Of a stretch of DNA of 34,694 nucleotides, positions 12,122 through 31,978 are shown piece after piece. The position numbers and the translations under genes were made by a program. Source of the stretch: Lentisphaeria bacterium (GTDB lineage: Bacteria; Verrucomicrobiota; Lentisphaeria; JABSQK01). The number at the start of each line of letters is the position of its first letter. The first letter of the stretch is position 1. A model generated the notes under the pieces. That model ran no database searches and had not been told where the DNA came from. It saw only the letters and a list, made by a program, of their open reading frames with translations. The stretch lies in assembly GCA_013215875.1 (NCBI GenBank), contig JABSQK010000147.1, forward strand, positions 1 through 34,694. The letters are read 5' to 3'.

Positions 12122-13411
12122 TCAGCAAACCACGGGCATGAGCTGCGAGATCATTAGCGCTGCACCGGATAGTCCCATGGCGCCTGCAAATAATGCAAAG
12201 GCGATAAATACAATGACGACCATTATTAGCACAATTTCCACGATCAATAAAACACCCGATATTAAGCAAAATAAAAATAATGTAAAGCAGCCTTCTTCTG
12301 AATCTCCATAAACACGGTTGTAGCCGATATAGTAGGACCAGCCAAAAACCAAATTACTGAGGAAGAATGAAACGTTTAAATTAATTAATTCTAGAATGGC
12401 AAAAAGCACATCCGCTCCAAGTTGTATCGCATAAACGACGCAGGCCATACGAATTGCATCTTTAAACGTTGCAGCACGAATGCTCATTATCTTAGAAGTA
12501 AGGAAATAATTTATAATGCTCAATCCAAACATGATAATGATAAAAACGACCCCGGCAAGAAAACCAGCGATTGCTCCAAGGGTGGAATACTTGTCATAAA
12601 TTTGCTCAAATTTGCCCCGGGCGCTATCGTCATATTCGTGTTCATAATCATCAGACGATTTTGCATAAGCACCAAACTTCTTTTCAAATTTTTCATAATC
12701 GGCTAAAATATCATCGGTAATTATGTTTACATCGACTCCATACTTTTTTGCGAAGAATTCTTTTCGTTCTTTCTTGCTGGGAGCTTTTTCTTTCTCTTGC
12801 GCAGCTGATGTTTGTTTGCTAGAGGATTTCTTTTTAGATAGCGGCATGCCTGGCATCCCGCCTGGACTCGTTTTTTTTGGTTCCCTTTTAGATAGCGGCA
12901 TGCCTGGCATCCCAGGACTCGTTTTTGGGGATTCCCTTTTAGATGCAGGTTGCATGGGCATGCTGCCAGGACTCGCTGGTCCTTTATATCTACCATTGCG
13001 AATTTGTACTAACTTTTTCTGGGTTTCACCTGAAAACTTAGAAATGGGAACGGTGATTTTTTTACCGCCTTTTTTCTTCTTCAGGACCACCATATCATTC
13101 GGAAAGCTGATCACACGAGCAATGAGGACATTTTTCCCATCTTTGCTCGTGAGCTGATAATAGCGCTTTAATTCTTTTAGGCGGGCCTTTTCTGCAAGAA
13201 AATAAATCCGGTCTTTTTGAGAAAAGAAACTGATGGGTACAACGATGATTTTACCATCTTTTTGGCGTTTAATTTTTACTTTGGCGCCAACGAAGCCAGT
13301 TAGTTCACCATTTACCTTTTTCTTTCCATCCGCACTGTCAAAACTACGAGCTGATAACTGAATGGAGGAAATTAAAAAGATGGCAATTAGCCAATTGCAG
13401 AGTTTCACCAT
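12122..13411 (-). CDS. Membrane protein with two SHD1-like domains and a repeat-rich linker
   Basis: An exported, membrane-anchored protein of about 429 residues. A signal peptide (MVKLCNWLIAIFLISSIQLSA) is followed by two SHD1-like domains. Each shows a GxxxxV.....dGK...VPIS.FS pattern, at about residues 30-75 (KIIVVPISFFSQKD) and 90-140 (KKITVPISKFSGET). A P/M/K/S-rich linker follows with near-tandem SPGMPGMPLSK repeats, then a charged segment. The C-terminal half has four to five membrane helices. That half resembles the membrane domain of the next gene upstream (shared AIAGFLA start, TF.(N/D)A segment, and G-(C/S) turn). The ORF track starts at 13432, but the ATG at 13411 has AAGGG at good spacing and yields a clean signal peptide. 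Function unknown. Confidence 0.75.
   Translation of the reverse strand: MVKLCNWLIAIFLISSIQLSARSFDSADGKKKVNGELTGFVGAKVKIKRQKDGKIIVVPISFFSQKDRIYFLAEKARLKELKRYYQLTSKDGKNVLIARVISFPNDMVVLKKKKGGKKITVPISKFSGETQKKLVQIRNGRYKGPASPGSMPMQPASKRESPKTSPGMPGMPLSKREPKKTSPGGMPGMPLSKKKSSSKQTSAAQEKEKAPSKKERKEFFAKKYGVDVNIITDDILADYEKFEKKFGAYAKSSDDYEHEYDDSARGKFEQIYDKYSTLGAIAGFLAGVVFIIIMFGLSIINYFLTSKIMSIRAATFKDAIRMACVVYAIQLGADVLFAILELINLNVSFFLSNLVFGWSYYIGYNRVYGDSEEGCFTLFLFCLISGVLLIVEIVLIMVVIVFIAFALFAGAMGLSGAALMISQLMPVVC
12831..12975 (-). repeat. Tandem repeat coding for SPGMPGMPLSK units
   Basis: Two DNA copies of about 55 bp (TTTTAGATAGCGGCATGCC ... GGACTCG), beginning near 12831 and 12886, and a diverged third near 12940-12975. 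Together they encode the SPG(M)PGMPLSK linker of the two-SHD1-domain protein. Copy number may vary between strains. Confidence 0.7.
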
Positions 13412-13521
13412 TTGTCCCTTGAGTTCATACAAACTAGCACAAAATACATAAATTTAAATGTTTTTAGGCTTATCGGATGATAAAAAAAGAAGCAGTAATT
13501 TTAATTTTACATGAGGTAATT

Positions 13522-14241
13522 TTACATCATTTTCCAGATCATGGATAATGCTGCTGTTATTACGATAAGTATGCCAATAGGGACGAGGATAAAATAAAAT
13601 ATAAAAAATTTCATGCATCCCGCATCTTTATACGAGCGTTGGTATGCCCAATGGTAAGAAAATAAAAACCCAAGAATAGTTATAATAATGATAAGGATCA
13701 CGGACGGCAATACCATCGTTATACCGGCGATGACAAACTCTGTTAGGATGCCGAAAACAGAAAACCATATGGAAAATTTCACGGCATTTTGAAATGTGGG
13801 TTCGTCTGCTGCAAATTTACTGATAAACCATGTGTAAAGTACCTGGATGAGAAATTGTAGTATCAGGAAGGCAATAACAATGACAATGATGAGTACCAGG
13901 CCAAATGCTAAAAATCCTGCTATAGCTTGCTTAAACTTCGTGACATCTTCAGACTCCTCAATAAGATCTTCCTCTGCCTTAAACCCCACTCCATCATCAT
14001 AAGAAGCTACAACGGAGCGAAGATAGGCCTGGTCTTTCCGCTGAAAAGATGAAACCTTCATCTCAATCTCCCGGCCGTCTTTTTTACGAACAAGAATGAC
14101 ATTATCTCCATCCACAGAAATAACTTTTGCGATTAGTTTTTTGGAGCCATCCTTACTTCTAAATGTGTGATATTCGCCCTCGTCCTCTTCCTCCTCATAC
14201 TCCTCTTCTTCAATTTCGTCGTCATATTCTCCTCGCAACAT
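13522..14241 (-). CDS. SHD1-like domain plus multi-pass membrane protein
   Basis: 239 residues. A very acidic N-terminus (EIEEEEYEEEEDEGEY) is followed by one SHD1-like domain at about residues 26-75 (FRSKDGSKKLIAKV ... VILVRKKDGREIEMKVSSFQRKDQAYL). A charged stretch then leads into four or five membrane helices from about residue 105 to the end. There is no signal peptide, unlike its neighbours, so the SHD1-like part may face the cytoplasm. The ATG at 14241 is two bases after the stop of the thioredoxin gene and has no ribosome site of its own, so it is translationally coupled. The membrane half is paralogous to that of the 12122-13411 product. No function is known. Confidence 0.75.
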   Translation of the reverse strand: MLRGEYDDEIEEEEYEEEEDEGEYHTFRSKDGSKKLIAKVISVDGDNVILVRKKDGREIEMKVSSFQRKDQAYLRSVVASYDDGVGFKAEEDLIEESEDVTKFKQAIAGFLAFGLVLIIVIVIAFLILQFLIQVLYTWFISKFAADEPTFQNAVKFSIWFSVFGILTEFVIAGITMVLPSVILIIIITILGFLFSYHWAYQRSYKDAGCMKFFIFYFILVPIGILIVITAALSMIWKMM

Positions 14242-14243
14242 TT

Positions 14244-14801
14244 TTAGAATATTTTGGTCGCTTTTTTAAAAAAGGAGATGGGAATTTTTAAGCGTTTTTT
14301 GCCTTTCTTGCGAATGAAAATAACTTTGGTGCCCTCAAAGCCTTCAACTTTTCCTGTAATTTTTTTACCTTTCTTACTCGTTAAGGTCATTTGGCCGGGA
14401 CCTAGAGGTTCTTGTCTGGCAGAACGGCTGCTTATATGTTTGTCAATTTCAGCTGCAATGACGGCTTCACTAGTGACACCTACAAAGCGTTTCACCTCTT
14501 TGCCATTTTTGAAAATAATGATCGCTGGAATACCCCTAATACTATATTTTCGGGACGTGCTCTTTGCCTTATCAACATCCAACTTAGCAATTTTTGCCCG
14601 CCCTCTATAGCGCGATTCGAGCTTTACCATGATGGGGGCCTGCATTTTACACGGGCCGCACCAGACTGCCCAGAAATCAACAACAGTGACACCCGAGCGT
14701 ATTTTTTGAGAAAAGTTGCCATCGTTCAAATTACTGATAGCAAAGCTTGAAGAACAGCATAGACATGCCGCTAGAAAAACAATCTTTTTATACAATTTCA
14801 T
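14244..14801 (-). CDS. Exported thioredoxin fused to a C-terminal SHD1-like domain
   Basis: 185 residues. A signal peptide (KKIVFLAACLCCSSSFA, cut near residue 21) precedes a thioredoxin fold with active site WCGPC (47-51) and cis-proline in RGIPAI (Pro92). A C-terminal SHD1-like module follows (about 137-180, MTLTSKKGKKITGKV ... IPISFFKKATKIF). The protein should act as a disulfide reductase or isomerase outside the cytoplasm, or as a tethered redox partner. SHD1 domains bind NPF-type peptides in yeast Sla1; the role of bacterial copies is unknown. It heads a co-directional run with two SHD1-like membrane proteins, the next only 2 bp downstream. Cysteines in the signal peptide (CLCC) could suggest a lipoprotein, but there is no clear lipobox. 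Confidence 0.85.
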   Translation of the reverse strand: MKLYKKIVFLAACLCCSSSFAISNLNDGNFSQKIRSGVTVVDFWAVWCGPCKMQAPIMVKLESRYRGRAKIAKLDVDKAKSTSRKYSIRGIPAIIIFKNGKEVKRFVGVTSEAVIAAEIDKHISSRSARQEPLGPGQMTLTSKKGKKITGKVEGFEGTKVIFIRKKGKKRLKIPISFFKKATKIF

Positions 14802-14850: not shown

Positions 14851-16482
14851 CTATATGATATAAGATGGATCGTAATCTTCCGGCGCATCATAGCCGAGAA
14901 GGTTTATGCAGGATGCTGAATGGCTGCTAATGCCAAATTTCCCGTCTGCCAGGGTATAATTTTTGTCATATAAAGGGTCATATATCAAGCAGGGTACGGG
15001 GTTCAATGTATGACATGTCTTATTTCTTGGTATACCCGCTTCATCCAGTTTAATCACGCCCTGTTTATCTAGCTCATACATTTCATCTGCATTGCCATGA
15101 TCTGCAGTAACCACCAAAATACCGCCGGCTGCTTTTACCTCGGGAATTAAGCGGGCGAGGCAAAGGTCAACGGCTTCAACACTCATGCGAGCGGCCTGAA
15201 AATTCCCCGTATGGCCGATCATATCGGCATTTGGATAATTCAAACGAATAAAGTCGTGCTTCTTCTGACGTAAAGAGTCGATGACTATGTCGGTAATCTC
15301 GGCCCCTTTCATCCATGGACGTTCATCAAACGGAACATTATCCGATGGTACTTCAATATAGTCTTCAAGTTCATCGTTAAATTTGCCGGATCGATTGCCG
15401 TTAAAGAAGTAGGTAACATGGCCGTACTTTTGCGTTTCGCTTACGGCGAGCTGCCGTAAGCCCGTATTTGCGATGTACTCACCCATGGTTTTGTCGATAG
15501 CCGGTGGGGTCACCAGGTAACGTTTTGGTATTTGCAAATCGCCATCATATTGCATCATGCCGCAATATAAAACACTTGGGTAACGTTTGCGGTCAAATCT
15601 GTTGAAGTTTTCGTCTTCAAATGTTTTACAAAGCTCAATACCACGGTCGCCGCGAAAGTTGCAAAATATAACGGAATCGCCATCAACGATGGGGCCGATA
15701 GCATTGCCATTTTCGGCAATGACAAATGCAGGCAGATTCTGGTCGATGCAGCGCGTTTCATTGCGGAATGTTTTTATCGCTTCTTCGGCACTTGAAAATT
15801 GGCGTCCGTCACCCAATACATGGGTATGCCAGCCGCGCTCCACCATTGCCCAGTCAGCATCATAACGATCCATGGTGATAAACATGCGACCGCCGCCGGA
15901 AGCAATGCGGTAATCAACCCCGGATTGATTGTGCTCAGCAAGCAGTTTTTCAATAGGTTCAATATAATCCAGGGCAGATGTTTCCCCCACATCACGCCCG
16001 TCCAACAGAGTATGTAGACGGATTGATTTGACGCCTTCTTTTCTGGCCTGATTAATCATCGCGACGAGGTGGTCTATATGGGAATGCACATTACCATCTG
16101 AAAGCAGGCCGATGAAATGCAGAGTCGTATTATTTTGAGTGACATTGTTTGTCTGCTCTTTCCAGGTGGTGCCCTCAAACATACTGCCTGTTTCAATCGC
16201 TTCTTTTACAAGCTTGGCACCCTGGGCAAAAACCCGTCCACAGCCAATGGCATTGTGGCCGACTTCACTGTTGCCCATATCGTCATTCGACGGCATGCCT
16301 ACGGCAGTACCGTGTGCTTTTAATTTGGTATGGAGACTTGTCGTATGTAACGCATCTAAATGAGGTGTGTAAGCCTGAGCGACAGCATCAGCTTCATATT
16401 TTGGGCCATAGGCAACACCATCCATGATGCATAATACAACGGGACGCCCAGCGGCAAATTTTTTCGATTTTACTAAAGACAT
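14851..16482 (-). CDS. gpmI: 2,3-bisphosphoglycerate-independent phosphoglycerate mutase
   Basis: Interconverts 3- and 2-phosphoglycerate in glycolysis and gluconeogenesis, in the cytoplasm, with two Mn ions. The N-terminal LCIMDGVAYG and NSEVGHNAIG give the phospho-serine nucleophile (Ser72). HSHIDH, LDGRD, GGGRMFITMDRYDADW and the metal site VVTADHGNADEM are all present. At 543 residues it is slightly longer than the typical 510. It starts 20 bp after the stop of the 159-residue gene and may share a transcript with it. It is the only housekeeping gene in that unit. Confidence 0.96.
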   Translation of the reverse strand: MSLVKSKKFAAGRPVVLCIMDGVAYGPKYEADAVAQAYTPHLDALHTTSLHTKLKAHGTAVGMPSNDDMGNSEVGHNAIGCGRVFAQGAKLVKEAIETGSMFEGTTWKEQTNNVTQNNTTLHFIGLLSDGNVHSHIDHLVAMINQARKEGVKSIRLHTLLDGRDVGETSALDYIEPIEKLLAEHNQSGVDYRIASGGGRMFITMDRYDADWAMVERGWHTHVLGDGRQFSSAEEAIKTFRNETRCIDQNLPAFVIAENGNAIGPIVDGDSVIFCNFRGDRGIELCKTFEDENFNRFDRKRYPSVLYCGMMQYDGDLQIPKRYLVTPPAIDKTMGEYIANTGLRQLAVSETQKYGHVTYFFNGNRSGKFNDELEDYIEVPSDNVPFDERPWMKGAEITDIVIDSLRQKKHDFIRLNYPNADMIGHTGNFQAARMSVEAVDLCLARLIPEVKAAGGILVVTADHGNADEMYELDKQGVIKLDEAGIPRNKTCHTLNPVPCLIYDPLYDKNYTLADGKFGISSHSASCINLLGYDAPEDYDPSYII

Positions 16483-16502: not shown

Positions 16503-16982
16503 TTAACTATCAAATACAAAATATCGTGTTTCTGGAATCTGATGGAGAACAGTTTTTATCTCCTGGAAGTTAATTTCTAATTCGCTAATACTTTCGATAT
16601 CTTCAAAATCTGAATTAGCAAGCTCGAGACTTTCACCTTCAATCAATAATTGCTCTAGGCCCTGATCAGGCATGCGATAATTACCATCCGACAACTCAGT
16701 TTCCTGAAGTGATCCGAGAATGTTAAGTATGTATTTAACGTTTACCTTGTCAAGAATCAGCGCGTTTAAAAGTATGCGAAGGCGCGGTGTTTTCAACAAT
16801 TGAAGGGTGTTTTGAAAATCCGCCATTTGTTCATCCTGCTCAACTTTGCTCAATTCTTCGAATCGCTCTACCAGTATATCGAGATTCATTTCAAGCTCAT
16901 CAGTACTACAGTAAGGGTCTACATTTAATTCATCGTATATTGTGTGTATAAATGGATTGTACTTATCTTTAATTCCTGACAT
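16503..16982 (-). CDS. Hypothetical acidic protein coupled to the giant TPR protein
   Basis: Not recognised. 159 residues, acidic and predicted mostly helical, with no signal peptide or membrane segment, so probably cytoplasmic. The N-terminal TIYDELNVDPYCSTDELEMNLDIL recalls the first helices of a J domain, but the HPD motif is absent, so a chaperone role is not supported. A middle segment (LLKTPRLRILLNALILDK) looks like a helical hairpin. The ATG lies two bases after the stop of the 2013-residue gene, which strongly suggests co-translation and possibly a physical complex with its cytoplasmic TPR part. Confidence 0.65.
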   Translation of the reverse strand: MSGIKDKYNPFIHTIYDELNVDPYCSTDELEMNLDILVERFEELSKVEQDEQMADFQNTLQLLKTPRLRILLNALILDKVNVKYILNILGSLQETELSDGNYRMPDQGLEQLLIEGESLELANSDFEDIESISELEINFQEIKTVLHQIPETRYFVFDS

Positions 16983-16984
16983 AT

Positions 16985-19900
16985 CTATGATCCCTTTTGC
17001 ATTGTATAATTTAGTACCCGCTGGTACAGTCGTTCAAATTCATGAGACAGATTTCGTCCATCATCTGCAGCCTTCGATGCCTGGCGGCAGGCATCTCTTA
17101 ATTCCCATAGCACTTCTTCGAGTTCGCCAAGGGTCACTCCGGACGGTTTGTTATTCAGAGTCTCATCGAGCTTATCACCTGCTTGACGAAATTTCCCGTT
17201 AATGCCCGATTGCATGGCATCGAGCAAGTTGGTATTAAACACTTTTTTAGCACGCATATATTCCACAGGCGAGCCATAATGATTGCGGTATTCAAGATAG
17301 GCTTCCAGCTGCGCTTCTAATGGACCTATACTTTGCAATTTGAGAATTTCCTGACTGATGACCTGGAAGCTCATATAGGTGATAACAAAATCCCATGTTT
17401 TCAATATAGGATCGTTTTTCGGAAATGATGCAACTTTTTCTTTTACCGCACTATCTGCCATACCGACATATGCACCGAGGTTATTATCAAGCTCACCAAG
17501 CTTTGCAATATAGTCAAAATGGCGTTGCATATCCGCTGCAGAACCCTGCTCGATATACAAGACGAGATGGCCGATAAAGAGATTCAGCAGATAATCTTTA
17601 CGGAATTTTTTGTTTAAGCCATCGATTTCTTTTAATGGCAGAGGTCTGAACTCGTCTGCATCAGAAATACGTTCCAAACACATGTTCCAGTATTCACGGT
17701 TTGAGAAAACATAAGATTCCCAGAAATTTAATACATTGTCCCAAACATCTGCAACATTTTCTTTCGTCTCCGATTCTTCCGTTAGGATGGCCAGCCGCAA
17801 AAGCAAAAGACCTAAATTATTTTGCAGATTGTGCTTCATTAATTTATCCGAGACATTCTGAATGCTTTCAGCCAGTACATCGATTGTTTCTCGTACAACT
17901 TCTATGCTATCAAGCTTATCAAGGAGAGATGAAATTTTAAGTGATTCAAGAGCACTGGAGATGGGCCCGGTGGGATTTTTAACCTGCTGCAGAACTTCGA
18001 TTGCCCGCTTGGTATTGCCTGCCACCAGTGCCTGCCTGGATAAATCTGCAGATAAAATATAAAACAGCTTTTGGTTGAGTTTGGTTTTTTCAGCATGCGG
18101 CTGAAGATTGATAACTGCGGCATCGAGGTGTCCTCCCTCAAGGCAAGCCAGAGCTTGCAGGTAGGATGAATAACTCTTCGTCTTATCATCCATGGAGTGC
18201 AAAAGAAATTGCAGACGTGTTGTATCATTTATTTTGCAGAGGTAATATGCTTGAGCAGACAATATTTTTTGTTTGATATAGTCATTCTCTGTCTGAATCG
18301 CTGAAAGGACCTGTTCGGCTTCAGTATTTTTCGAATCCAGCGCCAATAAATAGGCCTCTACAAGCTGGTTTGAGGTGGCGATATAATCGTCGCAATCGAG
18401 GGTCTTTAATTGCTGTTCGAGTTCATTGGCCCGCTCTATATTTGACTGCAGGAGCTCCGAACATAAGAGATGATAAACATAACGGGAATTAGTAGGTTCT
18501 TTTTCGAGCAACGCTTTGAATATTTCAGCAGCATCAGTTAAATTTTTATTGTACATGTAACATAATGCAAGATAAAACTGGTAGCAGCTATTACGATTTT
18601 GATTCGTTGTTGTTAACTGCAATTCAGAAATGAGGTTTAGCGCGCCTTCATAATCGTTTCGAGAGATCATTTGTATGACCATGCGAAATCTTGCTTCTTC
18701 GAGAATCTTATTTAAGGCTTCCGAATCGACACCTCTTTCCTTGATGTATTCAAAACATTGCACTGCCATATTATAATCTTCTTGATTGAACAGTTTGTAT
18801 GCGATAGAATACATTGCTTCTATGGCATGGTCCTGCCACTTCTTGTCTTCGACATGGTGCCCGAATATCTTTAATAGAAGTTGTTCACAGCGGCTCAGCC
18901 TGTGTTGTACTGCATTTGCATAGGCAGCGAGATACAGAAACCATGGCGACTTCTCGCCTTTGCTTTCAGCTATATCAAAATATTTTAGAGCGGAATCATA
19001 GTCATTTTTAAAGAAATATATTTCGCCAATATTGCGGGATGCATTACGCACAAAGCTGTCACTTTCCACTGCTTTTTCAAGAAGCTCAAGCGAGCGGTCT
19101 TCATCGCTTGATTTAAGCAGAACACCCAAAAAATAATGAGCCCCAAGATTGCTTGAATCGAGCTCAAGTATGCGACGGAAAATAATTTCCGCTTCTTGAA
19201 GTTTCTCGGTTTCGAGAAGCAGCTGTCCATAGCCCATGAGAGCAGATACAAGGTCATTATTGCGTTGCAGTGCTTCTGCATAATGAGCGTTTGCATCTGA
19301 AATCTGTCCTTGCACATAGAAAATATTTCCCTGTAATGCGAGCGAATTTGCATAAAATGGATTATCGGGTTTAATTAATCCAATGACCTTAAAGGCTTTC
19401 TTGTATTCTTTTTGATCTGCAAATGTTGATGCGAGGTAGTAAATGCATTCTCCATCAAGTGGATTCTGCTTGATTAACATCTGGTACCATTCCACAGATT
19501 TGCTTTGCATACCTGATTTTGCAAAGGACCTTGCACCATGGAATAATGTATTTCGATTCCGTGATTCTACGGCTTCAAAGCATTTCGCTGCAGGTTGAAA
19601 CTTGCCTAGTTCAAATAAGCAAAAGCCAAGATTATACCAGAGCAAATCATTATTCCCACCCCCGGCAAGACAGCTCTTAAAATGCGGGATAGCACTCTCA
19701 TAGTCATTGCGCTCAAAATAAATAGACCCTAATAATTCGTGTGATGGGACATCGCGGGGATTCATTTCAATGAGGTGTTTGAGTTCTTTTTCACAAGCTT
19801 CAAGCTGGCCCTCTTCGTGATAGAGATAAGCCAGATTATAAATACAGTTATTTATATGTTCGTTAATAACGTCACTCTTTTGACGACGGACATTTTTTTC

Positions 19901-22900
19901 CAGCTTAATCAAGATTTTTTGAAATTCGTCTATACCTTTTGCAGCGTTGGTCTCAGAGTGGCGGATTGCCCGTTCAATATTGAATAAATGTATATCATGT
20001 AGCAAGGGCAAATCTTCTTCCAATTGGTCGAGGTCGCGTGTGATAAATGGCGCGAGGTTTCCCAAGGGACCCATGCGGTTTAATATTTTTCCAAGGAATA
20101 GTTTGCGTCTGAAATATATAAGTGGAAAGAAAGCCATCGTCGCCATACCGACAATATTGAATGAAAGGGAGGGTATAACTAATGAAAATAATACTGCAAT
20201 ACTGTGAGAGACCTTACCGACACTAATAAGTAAAAACATGAAAAAGCTAAAGCAAAAGAATACGACGCAGAAGTGAATCATGCTGTATTTTAAGTGGCCA
20301 AAGCGCATGCCGTTTCGAATGGTTCTGAAAAAATAAGTAATCCAAAACAAAATCCAAATGAAAAATGCACCCCAGTCCGCATTGCGAAGAACCTGGTTAT
20401 AAATTAATCCGCGGCTTTCATCGACATTACTATCGATACCAAGTGGTTCTTTAAAGCGCTCAAGCTTTAATTTAAATTGCCATTCCTTTTTTATCTTTGA
20501 GACTTTATTTTCCTGAGCAAGTTTAGGGAACTGACTCTCCAGGCTGTCATAAATCATAAAGGCCTTGCTTAATTGATTGATTTTTAGAAAATTTTCAGCC
20601 TGCCTTAATTTGAAACTGACAATTCGCTCATCCACTTTGTATTGTTTGATGTGAGTATCAAATTTTCTGATATTTAACTTATCGAGGGCTCTTATTGTTG
20701 TGTTTGGAACTGCCAGGTGCTCTTTGTCCAGATACAATTTATTTAAGCGCTTTTGAAAACTAATGATAATATCTTTTGCCAGTTCTGAGTGCAAAACAAA
20801 GTCAGGCACAGTTTTATCGATTGCCAGAAAATAAATGACTGCTTCATCTGCACGGCCTGTATCATCCCATATGCTTAAAAATTTCTGAACGATCAGGACT
20901 TTTTGTTCTTTTACCGCTGTGCAATGTTTAATTCTTTTTTGGTAGAGAACGGCATATTTATCGAGCTGTTCAAGCCAGGTTGTTTGATCCGCAAAACGTG
21001 GCTCCTTTTCTTTTCTGAGCGCCAACAACTTATTGAAAACATCATGCTTTTTTGCATGGCCAGGAAAATCAGAACAGAGAGTCTCATAGTCCATTATCAC
21101 CCCATTAAAATCAGAACCTTTCAGCTTTGTGGAAACCTGGTCAAGGATAACGGATACGAGCTCATCGTTGATGCTGATCATCGTTGAAAACTCTTTGTAA
21201 TTTTCTTTTATATCAGTAAAGATTTTTATTGCATCCGCCATTCTATTATTTTTAACAAGCTCTTTTCCCACTTTAAGGCGCAGCAGAATAAGCTTTTTTG
21301 TGAATGGGTCAGATGTATCCTTATCGCGAATGATTGTAACATTTTGAATAAACTTATCAGCGCTCAGAAAGGCCTTTTTCTTTTTTAAATATTCAACCAT
21401 GGAGAGAATTAGGTCCTGGTTAAATTCGCTATCGAGAACAAGCTTTTTAGTACTGAGCTTCTTTTGAATATTTTTTAAAACATGAGGCAGCAGAATTCCT
21501 TTTTCCTTGAGCAGGATACTCTGCCATTGTGCGGTTGCAGAGGGGTGTATGGAATCTCCATATTTGGAAAATTGTTCTTCCAACTTGCCATAGCGCAGCC
21601 ATTTCTCCAAAGCATCAGAATTTTCATTTTCCTGCAGTAGGCTGATTTTATCAAAAAAATTAATATAATTTTTTAGCTGTATGCCTTTATTTTTTACCCG
21701 CATGATTGTCCCGCTTTTGCCGCGAAGATGTTGTTTATTCTTTCTGAAAAATTGATCCATCTCAGAATATATTTTGCGGGCCTGGGCAAGATTTACATTC
21801 TTTTGGGCATTTACTTTTGTTTCCAGCTGGTTCAGTTCGCCCATCACTATTTTGAAATTTAAGTGATCAACTAATGGGCGATTTTTCACCTTTATTTCAG
21901 AAAACCCTTTTAAAATAGCCACGTATATTTTTGATGCTCCAGAATAATTTTTCTTAGTCATTTCCCGGTTTGCACTTAAGTACTGGTCGTGATATTTATT
22001 CAGCTTTCCTTGAAGCATAATCGATGATTTACGCAGTGTCTCTAAACCCGCTAAATCCGTATTAATTTTTTTAGTTAATTGCACGATGTTTTTACCAAAA
22101 AGCTTATCTTTCAGTTTTGCTAAAATTGTACTGTGATTTTCCGAAAGATTATATTTCCCCTTAAAGATTTTAGAGTAAGATTGCACGCCATCTTTTTCAT
22201 TGTAGACCAGGCTGTTCCGTGCCAATACAGGTAAGGTCTCTGCATGCAGTTTAGAGACCTTAAGAGCATCAAGAATTACGTTTTCCTGACTCATTTCAAA
22301 TGAATAGTCTTTTGTGGAATGAGATTTTAGCATGGAAAGTAATTGCACAATTTCAGTGCCTTTACCTCGCTTGAAAAGCTGTATACTGTTTTTCTGTATA
22401 AAAAGTGAGACATTAGTGAATTCCCGGTTAATTGCCTTTAGAGCACGGGCACGCTTCTTTGCGATAGGAGCAGTCATGTTTTTTACTTTATGAAAATCAT
22501 TGATTGCCTGTGAGCTGAGTTTTAAAAAAGCCAGGGATTTTTTATTTCTCATCTTGGAAATCTCTTCAACCTTGTCAATCAGCTTTAATACAACTACGGA
22601 AGGTTCTATGGCGTCGACTTGGTCACTGTAATATTTTTTCGCGAGTTCAATGGCTTTAGCGGTATCCCCACCCATCAATTCTTTGAGTTTCACAAATTTT
22701 AAATAGTTGTTGAGATGTTTTCTAAGTTTGGGGATATCCGTTTTTATGTTGTAATAGTCTTTCTTGCGAATCCAATTATTGAAGACGTGCAATTGAGCGT
22801 TTAAATTCCGCACTTCAGAGGAATATTGGCTGGATCTATTCACGTTGTGTTTCGAGATACGTTTTACTTCTTTTGCAGTAGCAATGGTATAGAACCCGCC

Positions 22901-23026
22901 TCGGTCATCAAGTATGATGCAGCGTAATTTGCTGCCAGTAGCTGTTAAAGTCAGAGTTTCATAATATGAATCTGCAAAAACGAACGACATCAGCATAAAA
23001 TAGAGTAAAATTTTTATCTTCAGCAT
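16985..23026 (-). CDS. Giant two-sided TPR membrane protein (2013 residues)
   Basis: A signal peptide (KIKILLYFMLMSFVFA, residues 3-18) leads into an exported, lysine-rich helical region of about 860 residues with no family I recognise. About three to four membrane helices follow near residues 885-975 (FFIWILFWITYFF, CVVFFCFSFFMFLLI, IAVLFSLVIPSLSF, MATMAFFPLIYF). After them come about 1000 residues rich in tetratricopeptide-type repeats (e.g. ACEKELKHLIEMNPRDVPSHELLGSIYF, EAEIIFRRILELDSSNLGAHYFLGVLL), then a helical C-terminus. Topology would put the first half outside and the TPR half inside. TPRs bind partner proteins, so this looks like a scaffold linking envelope and cytoplasm. The function is unknown. 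One uninterrupted frame of 6 kb argues for strong selection. The 159-residue gene follows after 2 bp. Confidence 0.8.
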   Translation of the reverse strand: MLKIKILLYFMLMSFVFADSYYETLTLTATGSKLRCIILDDRGGFYTIATAKEVKRISKHNVNRSSQYSSEVRNLNAQLHVFNNWIRKKDYYNIKTDIPKLRKHLNNYLKFVKLKELMGGDTAKAIELAKKYYSDQVDAIEPSVVVLKLIDKVEEISKMRNKKSLAFLKLSSQAINDFHKVKNMTAPIAKKRARALKAINREFTNVSLFIQKNSIQLFKRGKGTEIVQLLSMLKSHSTKDYSFEMSQENVILDALKVSKLHAETLPVLARNSLVYNEKDGVQSYSKIFKGKYNLSENHSTILAKLKDKLFGKNIVQLTKKINTDLAGLETLRKSSIMLQGKLNKYHDQYLSANREMTKKNYSGASKIYVAILKGFSEIKVKNRPLVDHLNFKIVMGELNQLETKVNAQKNVNLAQARKIYSEMDQFFRKNKQHLRGKSGTIMRVKNKGIQLKNYINFFDKISLLQENENSDALEKWLRYGKLEEQFSKYGDSIHPSATAQWQSILLKEKGILLPHVLKNIQKKLSTKKLVLDSEFNQDLILSMVEYLKKKKAFLSADKFIQNVTIIRDKDTSDPFTKKLILLRLKVGKELVKNNRMADAIKIFTDIKENYKEFSTMISINDELVSVILDQVSTKLKGSDFNGVIMDYETLCSDFPGHAKKHDVFNKLLALRKEKEPRFADQTTWLEQLDKYAVLYQKRIKHCTAVKEQKVLIVQKFLSIWDDTGRADEAVIYFLAIDKTVPDFVLHSELAKDIIISFQKRLNKLYLDKEHLAVPNTTIRALDKLNIRKFDTHIKQYKVDERIVSFKLRQAENFLKINQLSKAFMIYDSLESQFPKLAQENKVSKIKKEWQFKLKLERFKEPLGIDSNVDESRGLIYNQVLRNADWGAFFIWILFWITYFFRTIRNGMRFGHLKYSMIHFCVVFFCFSFFMFLLISVGKVSHSIAVLFSLVIPSLSFNIVGMATMAFFPLIYFRRKLFLGKILNRMGPLGNLAPFITRDLDQLEEDLPLLHDIHLFNIERAIRHSETNAAKGIDEFQKILIKLEKNVRRQKSDVINEHINNCIYNLAYLYHEEGQLEACEKELKHLIEMNPRDVPSHELLGSIYFERNDYESAIPHFKSCLAGGGNNDLLWYNLGFCLFELGKFQPAAKCFEAVESRNRNTLFHGARSFAKSGMQSKSVEWYQMLIKQNPLDGECIYYLASTFADQKEYKKAFKVIGLIKPDNPFYANSLALQGNIFYVQGQISDANAHYAEALQRNNDLVSALMGYGQLLLETEKLQEAEIIFRRILELDSSNLGAHYFLGVLLKSSDEDRSLELLEKAVESDSFVRNASRNIGEIYFFKNDYDSALKYFDIAESKGEKSPWFLYLAAYANAVQHRLSRCEQLLLKIFGHHVEDKKWQDHAIEAMYSIAYKLFNQEDYNMAVQCFEYIKERGVDSEALNKILEEARFRMVIQMISRNDYEGALNLISELQLTTTNQNRNSCYQFYLALCYMYNKNLTDAAEIFKALLEKEPTNSRYVYHLLCSELLQSNIERANELEQQLKTLDCDDYIATSNQLVEAYLLALDSKNTEAEQVLSAIQTENDYIKQKILSAQAYYLCKINDTTRLQFLLHSMDDKTKSYSSYLQALACLEGGHLDAAVINLQPHAEKTKLNQKLFYILSADLSRQALVAGNTKRAIEVLQQVKNPTGPISSALESLKISSLLDKLDSIEVVRETIDVLAESIQNVSDKLMKHNLQNNLGLLLLRLAILTEESETKENVADVWDNVLNFWESYVFSNREYWNMCLERISDADEFRPLPLKEIDGLNKKFRKDYLLNLFIGHLVLYIEQGSAADMQRHFDYIAKLGELDNNLGAYVGMADSAVKEKVASFPKNDPILKTWDFVITYMSFQVISQEILKLQSIGPLEAQLEAYLEYRNHYGSPVEYMRAKKVFNTNLLDAMQSGINGKFRQAGDKLDETLNNKPSGVTLGELEEVLWELRDACRQASKAADDGRNLSHEFERLYQRVLNYTMQKGS

Positions 23027-23490: not shown

Positions 23491-24066
23491 ATGGTCACCG
23501 ACAATATAGTAAATCAGGGATACGATCCGGATAAAAATCGCAGATCCAAGAAGAGGTTCAAAATCGTCAGTATTATTTTCGTTGTACTTATTGTTGGTGG
23601 TGGTGCAACTTTCTTTTTAATGGAGAATGATAAAGTTCGTGAAGACCTTTTCTCCTTCTTCAAAGCAGGAAAAGAGAGGGCCAAGGATACAGTCGCTGTA
23701 TCAAATCTGATCGATGAATTTACAGAAAGCCTGAAAGAAGGAAAATTTACACGCAGCCAAAAATATATTCTTAAGGAGGCTGCCTACATTAAAAAATCCG
23801 GGAAAAAACTTAAAGGGAAATCATTTTTAAAATTTGTGGAAAGGAATGAAAAGACGGAGACGAATATCTACAAGATTAAAGATTACGGTATGCGCAAAAA
23901 GGATGAACACTATGTTTGCGGCCGTGAATTTCATTTCGTTGAAAGATCCGCTACAGGGGTGCGTAACAATATAATTAAAATTAAATTCACCTTGCAAAAA
24001 AAAGATGACAAGTGGTTTATCATAGAAATCAAAGAACTCTCTGCAATGACAATGAAGCGTGGGTAA
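23491..24066 (+). CDS. Single-pass membrane protein of unknown function
   Basis: 191 residues. A basic cytoplasmic leader (NRRSKKRFK) precedes one membrane helix (about residues 24-44, IVSIIFVVLIVGGGATFFL), then a lysine-rich helical segment. The C-terminal alpha/beta part ends with HYVCGREFHFVE ... IIKIKFTLQKKDDKWFIIEIK. That last piece looks like the sheet of a cystatin/NTF2-like fold (often a DUF4878-type small domain), but this is only an impression. The ATG at 23491 has AAGGAAG just upstream. Its stop codon abuts the ATG of the dioxygenase gene (TAAATG), so the two are co-translated. Confidence 0.7.
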   Translation: MVTDNIVNQGYDPDKNRRSKKRFKIVSIIFVVLIVGGGATFFLMENDKVREDLFSFFKAGKERAKDTVAVSNLIDEFTESLKEGKFTRSQKYILKEAAYIKKSGKKLKGKSFLKFVERNEKTETNIYKIKDYGMRKKDEHYVCGREFHFVERSATGVRNNIIKIKFTLQKKDDKWFIIEIKELSAMTMKRG

Positions 24067-24738: not shown

Positions 24739-25433
24739 AACCACTGATCATTGCACATCGCGGCTGTTCATCACTCGCACCTGAAAATACCGTCGAGTCC
24801 GTAAAACTTGCCCTCGACTGCAATGCCGATGGAATTGAAATAGATGTACGACTCACTGCCGATAAACAAATCGTTGTTACTCACGATACCTGTACCGATC
24901 GCATATCGACAGAAAACCTGGAAGTACCGACAACGACTTATGCCGATTTACACGAGCTCGATATAGGCAGCTGGAAAGGAAGCGAGTGGTCAGGGTGCCG
25001 CATGGCTCTGCTTGAAACGATATTTAATCTTATGCCAGATGACAAGCAACTACTGCTTGAAATAAAATGCGGTGATGAAATTATTGAGCCGTTAAAAAAA
25101 CTTGCACAAATCTTTCCCGCGAAACTAATAATCATATCCTTTGACTATGAACTCCTGCTTAAGATAAAGAAGCAGTTTGTAGAAATACCGGTGATGTGGA
25201 TCGTTGAAAAAATGGATAAAACAGTTTTAGAAAAATTTGCCCTATCTGATTTTGACGGGCTCGATTTTAATATCGATGTGAATACTTTGGACGAGATGAA
25301 GGACATTGCTGCGGGCCTGAAAAAAGAAAGTAAAATCATCTATACCTGGACAATGAACGATGCTCAAAGACTGGATGAGCTCTCATTTCTTGATGGGATT
25401 ACCACAGATTACCCACAGGATTTTAATCTTTAA
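24735..25433 (+). CDS. Glycerophosphodiester phosphodiesterase (GDPD family)
   Basis: 232 residues of a single GDPD TIM barrel. It hydrolyses glycerophosphodiesters to glycerol-3-phosphate and an alcohol. AHRGCSSLAPENTVES (H8, E17), ADGIEIDVRLTAD (E35, D37) and VVTHD (H50) give the metal-binding and catalytic residues, and the YTWTMND and DGITTDYP strands close the barrel. There is no signal peptide, so it is cytoplasmic, as in the UgpQ type. It starts at TTG 24735, overlapping the dioxygenase stop by four bases (TTGA). Its 3' end overlaps the convergent SHD1-like gene by 11 bp. Confidence 0.92.
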   Translation: MKPLIIAHRGCSSLAPENTVESVKLALDCNADGIEIDVRLTADKQIVVTHDTCTDRISTENLEVPTTTYADLHELDIGSWKGSEWSGCRMALLETIFNLMPDDKQLLLEIKCGDEIIEPLKKLAQIFPAKLIIISFDYELLLKIKKQFVEIPVMWIVEKMDKTVLEKFALSDFDGLDFNIDVNTLDEMKDIAAGLKKESKIIYTWTMNDAQRLDELSFLDGITTDYPQDFNL

Positions 25434-26319
25434 GTTCAGCGATTTGTGACTTAACGCCCTTTATCTGTTTCTTTACAGCGGAAATTTTGTCTTTTATCTG
25501 AGATCGCTTCTTTCTCTTTTTCCGTGAGAGAGAGTCATATTGATTTTTAAGTTTTGTTTCTTGAAACTTTAAATCATCGAGCTTTGATTCAAGTTTGGCA
25601 ATACGTGTTTCATTCTTAGCCTCTGCCCGATCCTCTATTTTATCCTGCCTGGCTTTCTCACGTTTTTTCACCGTGTCTGTAATTTTTTCCTCTTTGGATA
25701 AACGTTTCTCAGAAAAATCCTCTTTCTTTTTCCACTGACGATAGGCTTTGGTACTACCTGTGAATATAGCACCTAGTCGCAAGGGATTTTCTCCCAGTTG
25801 TTTATCAAAAGCTTTCCGTTTAAGAAAGTTTAATTCCTGGATTTGATTCATGCTCATGCCATTAAATTCGATCTTCTCATTATTGATTAATTTACAATAA
25901 GATGAAAATGCCTGATCCTTTTTATAAACCATCGCATTCGACACCGCATAACTACGCTTGGTCGTTTTTACGACTAACAAATTCTCAGTGATTACATCCG
26001 TGACTGTACCGATGACCTTGATGGACGTCTTGCCCCTTAGAATGATCCGACCATCCTTATCAAGCACATAGCGCTGACCCGCCAGCTGAAATGCGGCCTT
26101 TTTATTTAAGTGATGTTTGACAAGATAAAAGACATCTTCATTGCTGAGATCTTTTAGACTGCAGCTTTTTATTTTTGTGGAATTGGCTAAACGGAATTCA
26201 ACTCGGCCTTTTTCCATATTCCAGAATTGAGCTTCCACCCGCTTTGAGTCGATTTCCCAGATGCGCAAATCAGCCGCAAATACCTGCAGGGATAGCATAA
26301 GTAGTATTACATATTTCAT
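25423..26319 (-). CDS. Exported SHD1-like protein with C-terminal coiled coil
   Basis: 298 residues. A signal peptide (MKYVILLMLSLQVFA, cut before ADLRIW) is followed by an SHD1-like domain at about residues 17-65 (RIWEIDSKRVEAQFWNMEKGRVEFRL ... LKDLSNEDVFYLVKHH), the best match to the SHD1 pattern in the window. A second beta-rich segment follows (about 75-135, ILRGKTSIKVIGTVTDVITENLLVVKT). The last 100 residues are a highly charged coiled coil (KIEDRAEAKNETRIAKLESKLDDLK ...). No strong ribosome site precedes the ATG. It converges on, and overlaps by 11 bp, the GDPD gene. Role unknown; the architecture suggests an envelope structural or binding protein. Confidence 0.75.
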   Translation of the reverse strand: MKYVILLMLSLQVFAADLRIWEIDSKRVEAQFWNMEKGRVEFRLANSTKIKSCSLKDLSNEDVFYLVKHHLNKKAAFQLAGQRYVLDKDGRIILRGKTSIKVIGTVTDVITENLLVVKTTKRSYAVSNAMVYKKDQAFSSYCKLINNEKIEFNGMSMNQIQELNFLKRKAFDKQLGENPLRLGAIFTGSTKAYRQWKKKEDFSEKRLSKEEKITDTVKKREKARQDKIEDRAEAKNETRIAKLESKLDDLKFQETKLKNQYDSLSRKKRKKRSQIKDKISAVKKQIKGVKSQIAELKD

Positions 26320-27450: not shown

Positions 27451-28218
27451 ATGACGGATCCCAGGAAAATTCTAATCACGGGTGCTTCCGGACTTATAGC
27501 AGGGTTCGCTATAAAAGCCCTTAAGGAAAGCTGCGAATTAACCCTTGTCGACCTTGACGATACAGCTTTTGTGGATTGCATAGCACTGGATCTCAGAATC
27601 GACTCACAAACACTGGACGACTTATGTTCGACTCACGATATGATCATTCACCTGGCTTTTTCCAAAGATCACACAGACGATATCAAAATGGCCGAAAATG
27701 TATACCGCGCGGCAATGAAAGCGGACTCAAAACCCAGTGTGATCATGGCGAGTTCCATTCATGCAGTGGGTGGCTATTGGGATTGGCAGAAGGAACCGTA
27801 TCGCTCCATCTTGAATAAGCAGGCATCCGCTGAAACCCTGAAAAATGCCCTGATTGGGATTGATCGTCCGCTTTATCCCAACAGTGTGTATGGTGCGTCA
27901 AAAGGCTATCTGGAGTTGCTTGGAAAGCATTATGCGGACCAAGGTTTGCAGGTCGTGGTCGTACGATATGGTGGTGTTACACATGAGCTTGATTTTTTTG
28001 AAAAAGAGCCGGGCTTTCATTCCATATGGTTCAGCCATGGCGATACGATTCACTTTTTTCAATGCCTTGTCAAGGCAGAGATTACCCAGCAGTACAGCGT
28101 TATCTTTGCGACATCCAAAAATCGTTTTGGGATACATGACTTGGGTCCGGCAGAACAGTTATTGAATTATACCGCTTCTGATGATGGCAGCGAGCAAGAT
28201 TACAAAAATGAACTATAA
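27451..28218 (+). CDS. Extended SDR: NAD(P)-dependent epimerase/dehydratase
   Basis: 255 residues. A Rossmann fold with nucleotide-binding TGASGLIAG (10-18), an aspartate at the end of beta-2 (TLVDLDD) that favours NAD over NADP, MASSIHAVGG at the catalytic serine strand, and the YGASK catalytic pair (Y147, K151). Overall closest in feel to uronate dehydrogenase-like or sugar-nucleotide SDRs. It is shorter than the 310 or more of sugar-nucleotide epimerases, so a free-sugar oxidation is more likely, but the substrate is unknown. AGGAG lies just before the ATG. It overlaps or abuts the GH130 gene, so it heads the carbohydrate operon. Confidence 0.85.
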   Translation: MTDPRKILITGASGLIAGFAIKALKESCELTLVDLDDTAFVDCIALDLRIDSQTLDDLCSTHDMIIHLAFSKDHTDDIKMAENVYRAAMKADSKPSVIMASSIHAVGGYWDWQKEPYRSILNKQASAETLKNALIGIDRPLYPNSVYGASKGYLELLGKHYADQGLQVVVVRYGGVTHELDFFEKEPGFHSIWFSHGDTIHFFQCLVKAEITQQYSVIFATSKNRFGIHDLGPAEQLLNYTASDDGSEQDYKNEL

Positions 28219-29695
28219 GTTTTTTATGAAAAATATTGCCAGTCTTAAAATAGAAGAACAGCGTTTTTATCCGGATATATCGCGGGTAATATTGCAGAGC
28301 TTTCTTCCTGGAAATTCCGAAAATGTACGCGGTATTTGTGAGCGTATTCTTGCTCTATCAAATGCCGAGGTCGTTTACAAAAAAGTAAAGAGTCGTTATG
28401 AGCAGCGCCATGCCGATATTGAAACGGTCTTTATGCAACATTATCAAATTGCTATTGAACACGCCGGCATAGCCGATTCTGAAAAGATAAAGGCGATGAG
28501 CCCAAACCAGAAAAAATTAATGGGGGCCTACTTTTCCAAAGAATATTCTGTTGAAGCAGCAGCCTTGTTTAATCCCTCGATTGTTCCATCTCGGGATCAA
28601 ACAGGTGTGGCGGATGGCGCCTTGCGCTTTATTCTCAGTCTTCGAGCAGTCGGCGAGGGACATATTTCATCGATCGTTTTCCGTTCGGGCATATCAAGTG
28701 CCGATGGCACAATAGAAATGGACCCGATTTCAGAGCATTTAAAACTACCGGAAATAAATCAAAATCCGGAATATGATAAACATACTTTTTTACTTAAGCT
28801 TGCTGAAATGAATTTGAATCCAGCCATTTATCAGGCGAGTTTAAACAGCCTCAATGCGCGCTTTAACTACAGGGATCTGGAGAACTGCATTTGGTATTAC
28901 GGGGTCAGTAACCCATCGACTGTTCATACAACAGAAACGGATGCAATTAAATGGCTGGCATTGTCAAATTATCAGGCATCATTTTCTGATCAAAGTGAGG
29001 TCTCATCGCGCGTTTTATTCCCATATTCAGAAAACGAAAATAATGGTATAGAAGACGCACGCTTTGTCGAATTTACTGATGATGGAAAAGTAAGTTACTT
29101 TGCTACATACACCGCCTACAATGGGGTGACCGTATTGCCGCAATTGATGATGACCAGGGACTTTAAGAGTTTTCGCATCAGCACACTCAACGGAGATGGA
29201 GTAAGCAATAAGGGAATGGCATTATTCCCTCGAAAGATTGGCGGAAAGTACTTTATGATTGGCCGTGTCGATAGTGAAAACCTATTTATCATGAGCTCGG
29301 ATAACATCCATTTCTGGAATAAATACGAGCCATTGCAGACACCCGGCTTTGCCTGGGACCTTATCAAAATCGGCAACTGCGGGTCGCCAGTAGAAACAGC
29401 AAGAGGCTGGTTGTTAATGACTCATGGCGTTGGCGCTTGCAGACAATATGCCATAGGTGCCATGCTCTTGGACCTTGAGGATCCAAGCATTGTTATTGCC
29501 TATCTGGACGAGCCTATTATCGAAAGTGAAGGGGAGGACCGGGAAGGTTATGTGCCAAATGTCGTCTATACCTGCGGCATAATGATTCATGGTGAAACCC
29601 TCATCATTCCCTATGCCATGTCAGACCGCATTACAGGATTTGTAACAGTTAATATAGATGACTTGCTCGACCGTTTGGTCATGCAGACGAAATAA
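28208..29695 (+). CDS. GH130-family mannoside phosphorylase/hydrolase-like protein
   Basis: About 495 residues. After an N-terminal helical extension of about 110 residues comes the five-bladed propeller of GH130: LFNPSIVPSRDQ, GIEDARFVEF (catalytic aspartate region), SNKGMALFPRKIGGKYFMIGR, IGNCGSPVETARGWLLMTHGVG, LDDP-like LEDPSIVIA, and GYVPNVVYTCG. GH130 enzymes act on beta-mannosides by phosphorolysis or hydrolysis; the long N-terminus places this outside the short characterised phosphorylases. The ORF can start at 28181 or 28208; the latter gives less overlap with the SDR gene and neither has a strong ribosome site. It lies between an SDR and a GT4 transferase, so it may trim or recycle what that transferase makes. 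Confidence 0.83.
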   Translation: MNYKFFMKNIASLKIEEQRFYPDISRVILQSFLPGNSENVRGICERILALSNAEVVYKKVKSRYEQRHADIETVFMQHYQIAIEHAGIADSEKIKAMSPNQKKLMGAYFSKEYSVEAAALFNPSIVPSRDQTGVADGALRFILSLRAVGEGHISSIVFRSGISSADGTIEMDPISEHLKLPEINQNPEYDKHTFLLKLAEMNLNPAIYQASLNSLNARFNYRDLENCIWYYGVSNPSTVHTTETDAIKWLALSNYQASFSDQSEVSSRVLFPYSENENNGIEDARFVEFTDDGKVSYFATYTAYNGVTVLPQLMMTRDFKSFRISTLNGDGVSNKGMALFPRKIGGKYFMIGRVDSENLFIMSSDNIHFWNKYEPLQTPGFAWDLIKIGNCGSPVETARGWLLMTHGVGACRQYAIGAMLLDLEDPSIVIAYLDEPIIESEGEDREGYVPNVVYTCGIMIHGETLIIPYAMSDRITGFVTVNIDDLLDRLVMQTK

Positions 29696-29713
29696 AATTC
29701 ACAGGAGTAGATA

Positions 29714-31978
29714 ATGGCAAGCAGTATAAATAGAGTCGTTTTTATAAGCGATTTTTTCCCTCGCCGTTGCGGTATTGCAACATTTACCTACGAACTATGC
29801 AATTCGATTACAGAGAGTCTAAAACCGGGAGCATATGCCGAAGTCGTGGCGATTGATGAAACACCCGAAAGCTATCAATATCCAGATTGTGTGCGCTTTC
29901 AAATAAATGAAAACATTCGCAATGATTATGTGGTCGCTTCTGAATTTATCAATATTATCGGCTACGATCTGGCCATTGTTCAACATGAATACGGCATCTA
30001 TGGCGGTGAGGATGGCAACTACCTTATTCATTTGTTACGCCGTCTAAACATGCCAGTTTTAACGACCTTGCACACGGTCCTTACAGAACCAAGTAAGGGT
30101 CAGCGCGAGGTGCTTATTGCTCTTGCGGAATTATCAGATTATCTCGTCGTAATGAGCCATAAGGCCGTCAAAATTCTCAAAGAGGTCTATGGGATTTCCG
30201 AAGATAAAGTGAGTTTTATTCCCCATGGTATTCCTGATATTCCTTTTAGTGATCCTTCCTTTCACAAGGATAGTTTTGGTGTGGAAAACCAAAAGCTTAT
30301 TCTTACTTTCGGATTAATTGGCCCCAGCAAGGGATTGGAGAAAATGATCGATGCCATGCCGGCGATCGTCGAGCAGCACCCGGATGCAGTCTACCTTATT
30401 CTGGGCGCAACTCATCCTCATATTATCCGCGATAGTGGTGAGAGCTACCGGAGGTCTTTAGTTCAACGTGCGAAGCGCTTAGGCGTCGAAAAGAACATTT
30501 TGTTTCACAATCGTTTTGTGAGTATGGAAGTGCTTGTACAATATTTGAGCGCTGCAGATATTTATTGTACGCCCTATCCCAATATGGCACAAATCACTTC
30601 GGGAACCCTGGCCTACGCGCTGGGATCTGGAAAAGCAGTTGTTTCCACACCGTATTGGTATGCCGAAGAACTGCTCGCCGACGGGCGGGGTGAGTTGGTG
30701 GACTTTGAGGATACAGAGAGTTTTTCCAACGCGATAAATATGTTATTAAATGATGATGGCAAACGCAATACCATGCGCAAAAAAGCGTATCAATTTTGTC
30801 GTTCTATGGTTTGGTCTAAAGTCGCTGCCGACTATATAGCTCTCGGAGAATCAGTCATTGCTGAACAAGCGTGCAAACCAAAACCCCGTAGTTTGGACAC
30901 AGTGGATGTTCTTGAAGAACTGCCAGTAACAAAACTTCAACACTTAAAAATTTTAACCGATGATACAGGTATATTGCAGCATGCTTTTTCCACCACGCCA
31001 AACCGCCATCACGGCTACTGCCTGGATGACAATGCCCGCGCACTTATTGTTACCTGCCTCCAATACAAACAGGAAAAAGATGATTCATTACTCTCAATGA
31101 TTCATACCTATCTCTCCTTCATCCAATATGCCTTTAATACTGAGACTCGTCGCTATCGGAATTTCATGAGTTTTCACCGGACCTGGCTGGAGGATGAGGG
31201 CAGTGAAGATTCACACAGCCGCGCTGTGTGGGCACTTGGCGTTGCAGTAAAATATGCACCCGTTCCAAGTATTGGAGAAACGAGTGCACGCATGTTCACC
31301 GGTGCCATAGAAAAAGTGGAAAGTTTCAAATCCCCCCGAGCGATTGCATTTTCGCTGATTGGGATCCATGCCTATCTTGAAATCTATGCTGGCGATAGTG
31401 ATATACGCCGCATACGAAATTCCCTGGCAGAAAAACTGTACAAACAGTTTAAGGAAAACGCCAACGATGATTGGCCTTGGATGGAGGATAGTGTTACCTA
31501 TGCCAATGGTATCCTGCCACTCGCCTTAATGCTCTCGGGCCAGTGGATTCCCAAGATGGACATGCATGAGATGGGAATCAAAGCCTTGCGCTGGTTGCTC
31601 GATAAGCAGAAGTCCGCCCAAGGACACCTAAGCATTATCGGCAATGAAGATTGGATGACACGAGACGGTAAACATTCCACCTTCGACCAGCAACCCATCG
31701 AACCCATGTGTCTTATACTCGCCTGTTGTGAAGCATACCGTTCCACACGCGATGACATCTGGGTGACAGAAGCACGGCGTTGCCTCGATTGGTTCCTTGG
31801 TAATAATGACTTAAATATACCCCTCTGCAATTTTCGCACAGGCGGCTGTCGCGATGGTTTACATCCGGGTGGTGCAAGCATCAACCAAGGTGCAGAATCA
31901 ACCCTGGCCTGGCTCATTTCTCTGCTCGCAATGCATGAGATCAATGAATTGTCACCAGCACCCAAAGAGAAAGAATAA
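29714..31978 (+). CDS. GT4 glycosyltransferase fused to an alpha-helical C-terminal domain
   Basis: 754 residues. Residues 1-385 or so form a GT-B fold of family 4: SDFFPRRCGIATFTYEL at the N-terminus, VQHEYGIYGGEDGNYL, TTLHTVL, FIPHGIPD, LTFGLIGPSKGLEKMIDAMP (donor-binding loop) and PYPNMAQITSGTLAYALGSGKAVVSTPYWYAEELL. The remaining 360 or so are helical and resemble an (alpha/alpha)6 barrel (GYCLDDNARALIVTCLQYK, WPWMEDSVTYANGILPLALM, GCRDGLHPGGASINQGAESTLAWL), which could be hydrolytic or binding. AGGAG precedes the ATG. GT4 proteins of this shape occur with GH130 partners, from memory. The donor is probably GDP-mannose, by association only. Confidence 0.83.
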   Translation: MASSINRVVFISDFFPRRCGIATFTYELCNSITESLKPGAYAEVVAIDETPESYQYPDCVRFQINENIRNDYVVASEFINIIGYDLAIVQHEYGIYGGEDGNYLIHLLRRLNMPVLTTLHTVLTEPSKGQREVLIALAELSDYLVVMSHKAVKILKEVYGISEDKVSFIPHGIPDIPFSDPSFHKDSFGVENQKLILTFGLIGPSKGLEKMIDAMPAIVEQHPDAVYLILGATHPHIIRDSGESYRRSLVQRAKRLGVEKNILFHNRFVSMEVLVQYLSAADIYCTPYPNMAQITSGTLAYALGSGKAVVSTPYWYAEELLADGRGELVDFEDTESFSNAINMLLNDDGKRNTMRKKAYQFCRSMVWSKVAADYIALGESVIAEQACKPKPRSLDTVDVLEELPVTKLQHLKILTDDTGILQHAFSTTPNRHHGYCLDDNARALIVTCLQYKQEKDDSLLSMIHTYLSFIQYAFNTETRRYRNFMSFHRTWLEDEGSEDSHSRAVWALGVAVKYAPVPSIGETSARMFTGAIEKVESFKSPRAIAFSLIGIHAYLEIYAGDSDIRRIRNSLAEKLYKQFKENANDDWPWMEDSVTYANGILPLALMLSGQWIPKMDMHEMGIKALRWLLDKQKSAQGHLSIIGNEDWMTRDGKHSTFDQQPIEPMCLILACCEAYRSTRDDIWVTEARRCLDWFLGNNDLNIPLCNFRTGGCRDGLHPGGASINQGAESTLAWLISLLAMHEINELSPAPKEKE

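Follow-up and report, generated by a model that had tools for sequence, protein, structure and literature searches.

A stretch of 34,694 nucleotides from a Lentisphaeria bacterium (hereafter the window) encodes two adjacent genes forming a real, conserved pair that is so far restricted to one Lentisphaeria order. The first gene specifies a 2013-residue protein with TPR arms predicted on both sides of the inner membrane, and the second a 159-residue J-like protein. As judged from family comparisons, the family is undescribed: its parts are of known kinds, in a combination that we did not find described. The architecture of the pair is well supported; binding between the two proteins, the ligands and the scaffold role are inferred. 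An earlier note, made from the DNA alone, had known of no described system of this form. That view has held, as our searches returned no family match beyond generic TPRs and a degenerate J domain, and the literature searched contains no such system. The features of the locus are collected in Table 1.

Table 1. Features of the two-gene locus and its downstream neighbour (positions in the window).
Feature	Position	Strand	Basis
Long protein, 2013 aa, putative two-sided membrane TPR scaffold	16985–23026	minus	ORF translation; orthologues
Signal-peptide-like N-terminus, residues 1–18, VFA/DS	22973–23026	minus	Sequence, hydropathy; similar in 5/5 orthologues
Small five-strand beta domain (predicted), residues 26–58, unclassified	22853–22951	minus	AlphaFold
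Long helical hairpins, predicted exported, residues 70–550, least conserved part	21377–22819	minus	AlphaFold; conservation profile
TPR-like alpha-solenoid, predicted exported, residues 551–862	20441–21376	minus	Helix pattern of model; Pfam TPR_14/TPR_6
Three predicted TM helices, residues 885–971, positive loops inside	20114–20374	minus	Hydropathy, AlphaFold, loop charges
Cytosolic TPR superhelix (predicted), residues 1038–1690	17957–19915	minus	Pfam; PDB consensus-TPR matches
First cytosolic TPRs, residues 1101–1200, peak conservation, candidate ligand site	19427–19726	minus	Conservation
C-terminal region, residues 1691–2013, without relatives outside the order	16988–17956	minus	Phylum sample, PDB
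Shine-Dalgarno-like AAAAGGGA of the small gene, within the final codons of the long one	16991–16998	minus	Sequence
Small J-like protein, 159 aa	16503–16982	minus	ORF translation; orthologues
Degenerate J domain of the small protein, residues 14–76, no HPD	16755–16943	minus	Profile, hhalign, Pfam, model, Foldseek
gpmI, iPGM-type phosphoglycerate mutase, 20 bp downstream of the small gene	14851–16482	minus	Found downstream in G004, G005 and the deleted G003 locus too

The long gene, which opens with ATG and closes with TAG, is one uninterrupted frame, and the small gene starts 2 bp past its stop, as the earlier note had described. A search of its own genome found the long gene in a single copy. 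Relatives were sought in 60 genomes, and four further genera of the order proved to encode an orthologue of the long protein, each as a stop-free open frame of about 2000 codons (2009–2047 aa). As the small gene adjoins the long gene, directly downstream, in all five genera, the two ORFs are not the product of chance or of an assembly join. Identity to the window proteins is 24–27% for the long protein and 24–35% for the small one. Sequence searches located the small gene in three relatives; in the fourth, G002, it encodes 143 aa, is too diverged for a single-sequence search and was found by position. The carriers are MAGs labelled Verrucomicrobia (OFTM167, OFTM198) or Lentisphaeria (ETNP2_MAG_64, UBA12247), and the phylogenetic spread of the pair, one of the checks proposed in the note, thus covers five genera of one order. 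Searched with profiles of the exported half, 198 genomes from the class and 388 from the phylum added no convincing member to the family. The profile matches in four genomes outside the order (G250, G258, G330, G373) span some 70–120 positions at about 17–22 bits and are best read as generic repeat similarity. A pattern scan of genome contigs returned the same four relatives and no others; since it used two peptide patterns, very distant relatives could be missed. The distances between the long and small genes at the five loci are 2, 26, 244 and 3 bp and a 59-bp overlap, indicating that tight coupling is not universal. In G002 (L015 10271–10279) the two genes lie in one frame with TAA-GCC between them, such that a single read-through would fuse them.

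Each of the five long proteins begins with a signal-like segment and has a hydrophobic region of three helices at about residues 885–971, seen by hydropathy and, for the window protein, by AlphaFold. In the orthologues the loop between TM1 and TM2 contains three to four Lys/Arg residues, against none to two between TM2 and TM3. Cysteine accounts for 0.35–0.59% of the exported half and 1.24–1.56% of the cytosolic half in all five, being about two to four times rarer outside. Together, the signal-like N-terminus, the TM helices, the loop charges and the cysteine asymmetry favour a predicted N-out/C-in topology for the five proteins. The two-sided architecture put forward earlier therefore stands as a prediction; the halves are not placed on the same side of the membrane, an arrangement that the note had considered incompatible with its proposal. 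An FFPLIY motif is conserved at the inner end of TM3 in the orthologues.

The exported half had been described as about 860 helical residues. It is indeed predicted to be mostly helical, but it also contains a five-strand beta domain, and its last 300 or so residues look TPR-like. AlphaFold, run on residues 1–1012 with five sequences (mean pLDDT 78, pTM 0.37), yielded the fold prediction that the note had suggested, a beta domain followed by an alpha-solenoid: the beta domain at 26–58, long hairpins to about residue 550, TPR-like helices to about 862 and then the three TM helices. As the pTM is only 0.37, the overall shape of this half is uncertain. Pfam TPR_14/TPR_6 matches occur in the exported half of four of the five members (best E 1.7e-4), and the helix pattern of the model fits such repeats. 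The last third of the exported solenoid would thus be TPR-like, and solenoids would lie on both sides of the membrane. Foldseek retrieved generic alpha-solenoids alone for this half, with TM-scores of 0.18 or less among the matches listed. As for the cytosolic half, several Pfam TPR models match above their curated cut-offs (TPR_2 1.3e-27, TPR_19 1.7e-27 and others), and a PDB search matched designed consensus TPRs and the TPR domain of OGT. The approximately 1000 cytoplasmic TPR residues of the earlier note are thus partly borne out: Pfam repeats are seen to about residue 1590, but the last 320 or so residues have no relatives outside the order in the phylum sample or the PDB, and none there as a J-domain fusion. 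Conservation peaks at residues 1101–1200, with 50% mean pairwise identity.

Profile comparisons and a predicted structure together show J-domain ancestry for the small protein. In hhalign its profile matched DnaJ J domains at 95% (E 3.9e-8, profile columns 11–72), and Pfam DnaJ was weakly matched in three of the five small proteins, below the curated cut-off (25.7 versus 27.8 bits for the G005 copy). The helices of the model, at 15–19, 27–42, 46–64 and 66–76, follow the J-domain order I–IV, albeit at low confidence (pLDDT 57). Nearly all of its 20 Foldseek matches are J-domain-containing proteins, every one with an E above 1 and none significant alone. The J-like character noted at the outset is therefore correct, but it is not confined to the first helix, as residues 14–76 or so give all four. 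The reported lack of HPD between helices II and III extends to all five orthologues, in which the loop is short, and for want of this motif the protein is J-like rather than a J protein. Its acidity, in contrast, is no family trait, the net charges of the five orthologues being −21, +2, −10, −8 and −15. The small-protein profile also picks up frames of about 385–420 aa in other genomes; in 11 of these 19 frames a strict motif search, which left the other eight unresolved, identified an N-terminus of the DnaJ type, including HPD, together with the four zinc-finger repeats. No relatives of the C-terminal 85 or so residues were found outside the order.

How does the pair compare with known systems? 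LapB/YciM is an inner-membrane-anchored cytosolic TPR hub of LPS synthesis (PMC12387048) and shares the anchor and the cytosolic TPR array with the long protein. However, LapB combines an N-terminal TM anchor with TPRs and a rubredoxin domain and lacks a large exported half; the NCBIfam LapB equivalog NF008757 scores 30.9 bits against the long protein, for a cut-off of 363, a generic TPR match. Conversely, PflA, with a signal peptide, an N-terminal beta domain and a periplasmic TPR solenoid, and PflB, with a TM helix and a large periplasmic TPR domain (PMC11392913), both of the Campylobacter/Helicobacter motor, have no large cytosolic TPR half. In the inner-membrane TPR scaffolds compared here (LapB, PflA, PflB), the repeats lie on one side of the membrane. 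The small protein shares helix order I–IV and profile similarity with the DnaJ J domain (PF00226), but its loop between helices II and III is shortened. A J-domain fold without HPD is also found in Pam16/Tim16 and other J-like proteins (PMC11349236). Unlike Pam16/Tim16, however, the small protein is soluble, bacterial and encoded beside a TPR scaffold, with no Pam18-like gene adjoining. The literature searched yielded no account of a bacterial protein that combines large repeat arms on the two sides of the membrane with a dedicated J-like partner.

On balance, we favour a TPR scaffold that is embedded in the membrane, reaches to both sides of it and carries, on its cytosolic arm, a J-like adaptor independent of DnaK. 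The N-terminus would be exported via Sec, and the exported half, with its beta domain, helical hairpins and TPR-like solenoid, would lie in the periplasm and bind an envelope ligand. The three TM helices would anchor the scaffold in the inner membrane, and the first, best-conserved cytosolic repeats might bind a cytosolic partner. The small protein would probably be made from the same mRNA by coupled translation and would most likely serve as a structural adaptor on the cytosolic arm, in the way that Pam16 and similar J-like proteins do in other systems. Stimulation of Hsp70 depends on HPD, and J-like proteins frequently function without it (PMC11349236), which makes the adaptor role more likely; having lost HPD, the small protein is probably unable to drive DnaK. 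It is tempting to go further and propose, though we hold this only tentatively, a solenoid made of a single chain, with TPR arrays at either face of the inner membrane and a J domain that, its Hsp70 function lost, has turned structural adaptor, the whole forming a lineage-specific hub that would couple periplasm and cytosol in Lentisphaeria. Should the two proteins bind directly, they would be an example from bacteria of a J domain put to new use as a structural adaptor, and would open a way into envelope organisation in a part of the PVC group that is uncultured.

The earlier note went beyond a scaffold and held that such an architecture implies mechanical or signalling coupling. This implication does not follow, since a static hub, too, can be built as a two-sided scaffold. 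In a coupler, the TM bundle would pass on ligand binding or force from the exported solenoid to the TPR arm in the cytosol and to the J-like protein. The two-sided solenoid with its predicted topology would suit this, as would the strong conservation just inside the membrane (residues 986–1230). Nevertheless, we consider it unlikely: family-model searches found no motor, kinase, sensor, enzyme or output domain in either protein, the TM bundle is short and hydrophobic with no conserved charged residue inside, and conservation in the long protein is lowest in the exported half (0.18–0.23). Equally improbable in our view is a membrane-bound regulator of Hsp70, in which the J-like protein would pair with a canonical J protein and tune DnaK while the TPR arm provides a client or chaperone platform. 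Its J-like fold without HPD, the Pam16–Pam18 precedent (PMC11349236) and the presence, elsewhere in six of six genomes, of a J protein above the Pfam cut-off are in keeping with such a role. However, the locus contains no second J gene, nothing links it to translocation, and most Arabidopsis J-like proteins are Hsp70-independent (PMC11349236).

Alternatively, the two genes might merely share an operon without their products forming a complex, the long protein alone being a two-sided TPR scaffold. The variable intergenic spacing is compatible with this, and the housekeeping gene gpmI is likewise co-directional and close; yet the small gene lies directly downstream in five of five genera, whereas the gene after it is gpmI only in G000, G004, G005 and G003, and we give this reading little credence. 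We reject a flagellar-motor scaffold of the PflA/PflB kind as highly improbable. Its appeal stems from the best Foldseek match of the exported half, the periplasmic scaffold 9hmf_K of the Campylobacter motor (E 1e-4), and from the similar succession of signal peptide, beta domain and TPR solenoid in PflA. But the TM-score to 9hmf_K is 0.10, the other top matches are unrelated eukaryotic solenoids, and FliG is encoded in only two of the five pair-carrying genomes, the three without it being 84–91% complete.

The genes around the preferred scaffold–adaptor pair are of the housekeeping type and give no functional hint: besides gpmI, an inositol-monophosphatase-family gene lies divergently upstream in four relatives (Pfam run on the G005 copy), with IleRS beyond it in G004 and G005. 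G003 belongs to the same genus as G005 and has a reduced genome of 2.0 Mb. What it retains of the long gene is the first 57 codons, containing two stops, and these run directly into the final 46 codons of the small gene (L023 1335–1645; G003:C1, about 1121800–1122110). The missing segment corresponds to L012 4702–11030 (6329 bp), and the flanks match G005 at 78% and 77%. Most simply, the sequences suggest that both genes were lost together, in one event. The pair is thus dispensable at least in that lineage, but as the genes are neighbours, their joint loss is no proof of partnership. The deletion looks fresh, the small-gene tail being 89% identical to that of G005.

Other parts of the window deserve mention. 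Exported or membrane proteins bearing short SHD1-like domains cluster at 12122–14801 and 25423–26319, Pfam SHD1 falling just below its cut-off in two of them; the cluster includes a thioredoxin with a similar-looking tail (14244–14801). By eye the N-terminal beta domain of the long protein resembles these domains, but hhalign found no relation and we rejected an SHD1 identity. At 23491–24066 is a 191-aa membrane-anchored protein whose sole family match, to the N-terminus of FliL, is weak (E 4e-4, far below the cut-off) and corresponds to its TM segment. Bacterial cadherin/Ig-like repeats at 32969–34693 run off the end of the window; ahead of the C-terminus stands a very acidic tail, EDDDEEDDDEEDD. 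A beta-mannobiose-phosphorylase-like protein of the GH130 kind lies beside a group-1 glycosyltransferase at 28181–31978, the latter with a C-terminal extension of about 370 residues without Pfam match. Finally, a 656-aa frame with a GTG start (6661–8631) weakly matches alpha-L-rhamnosidase from profile position 198 and is possibly an N-terminally shortened glycosidase.
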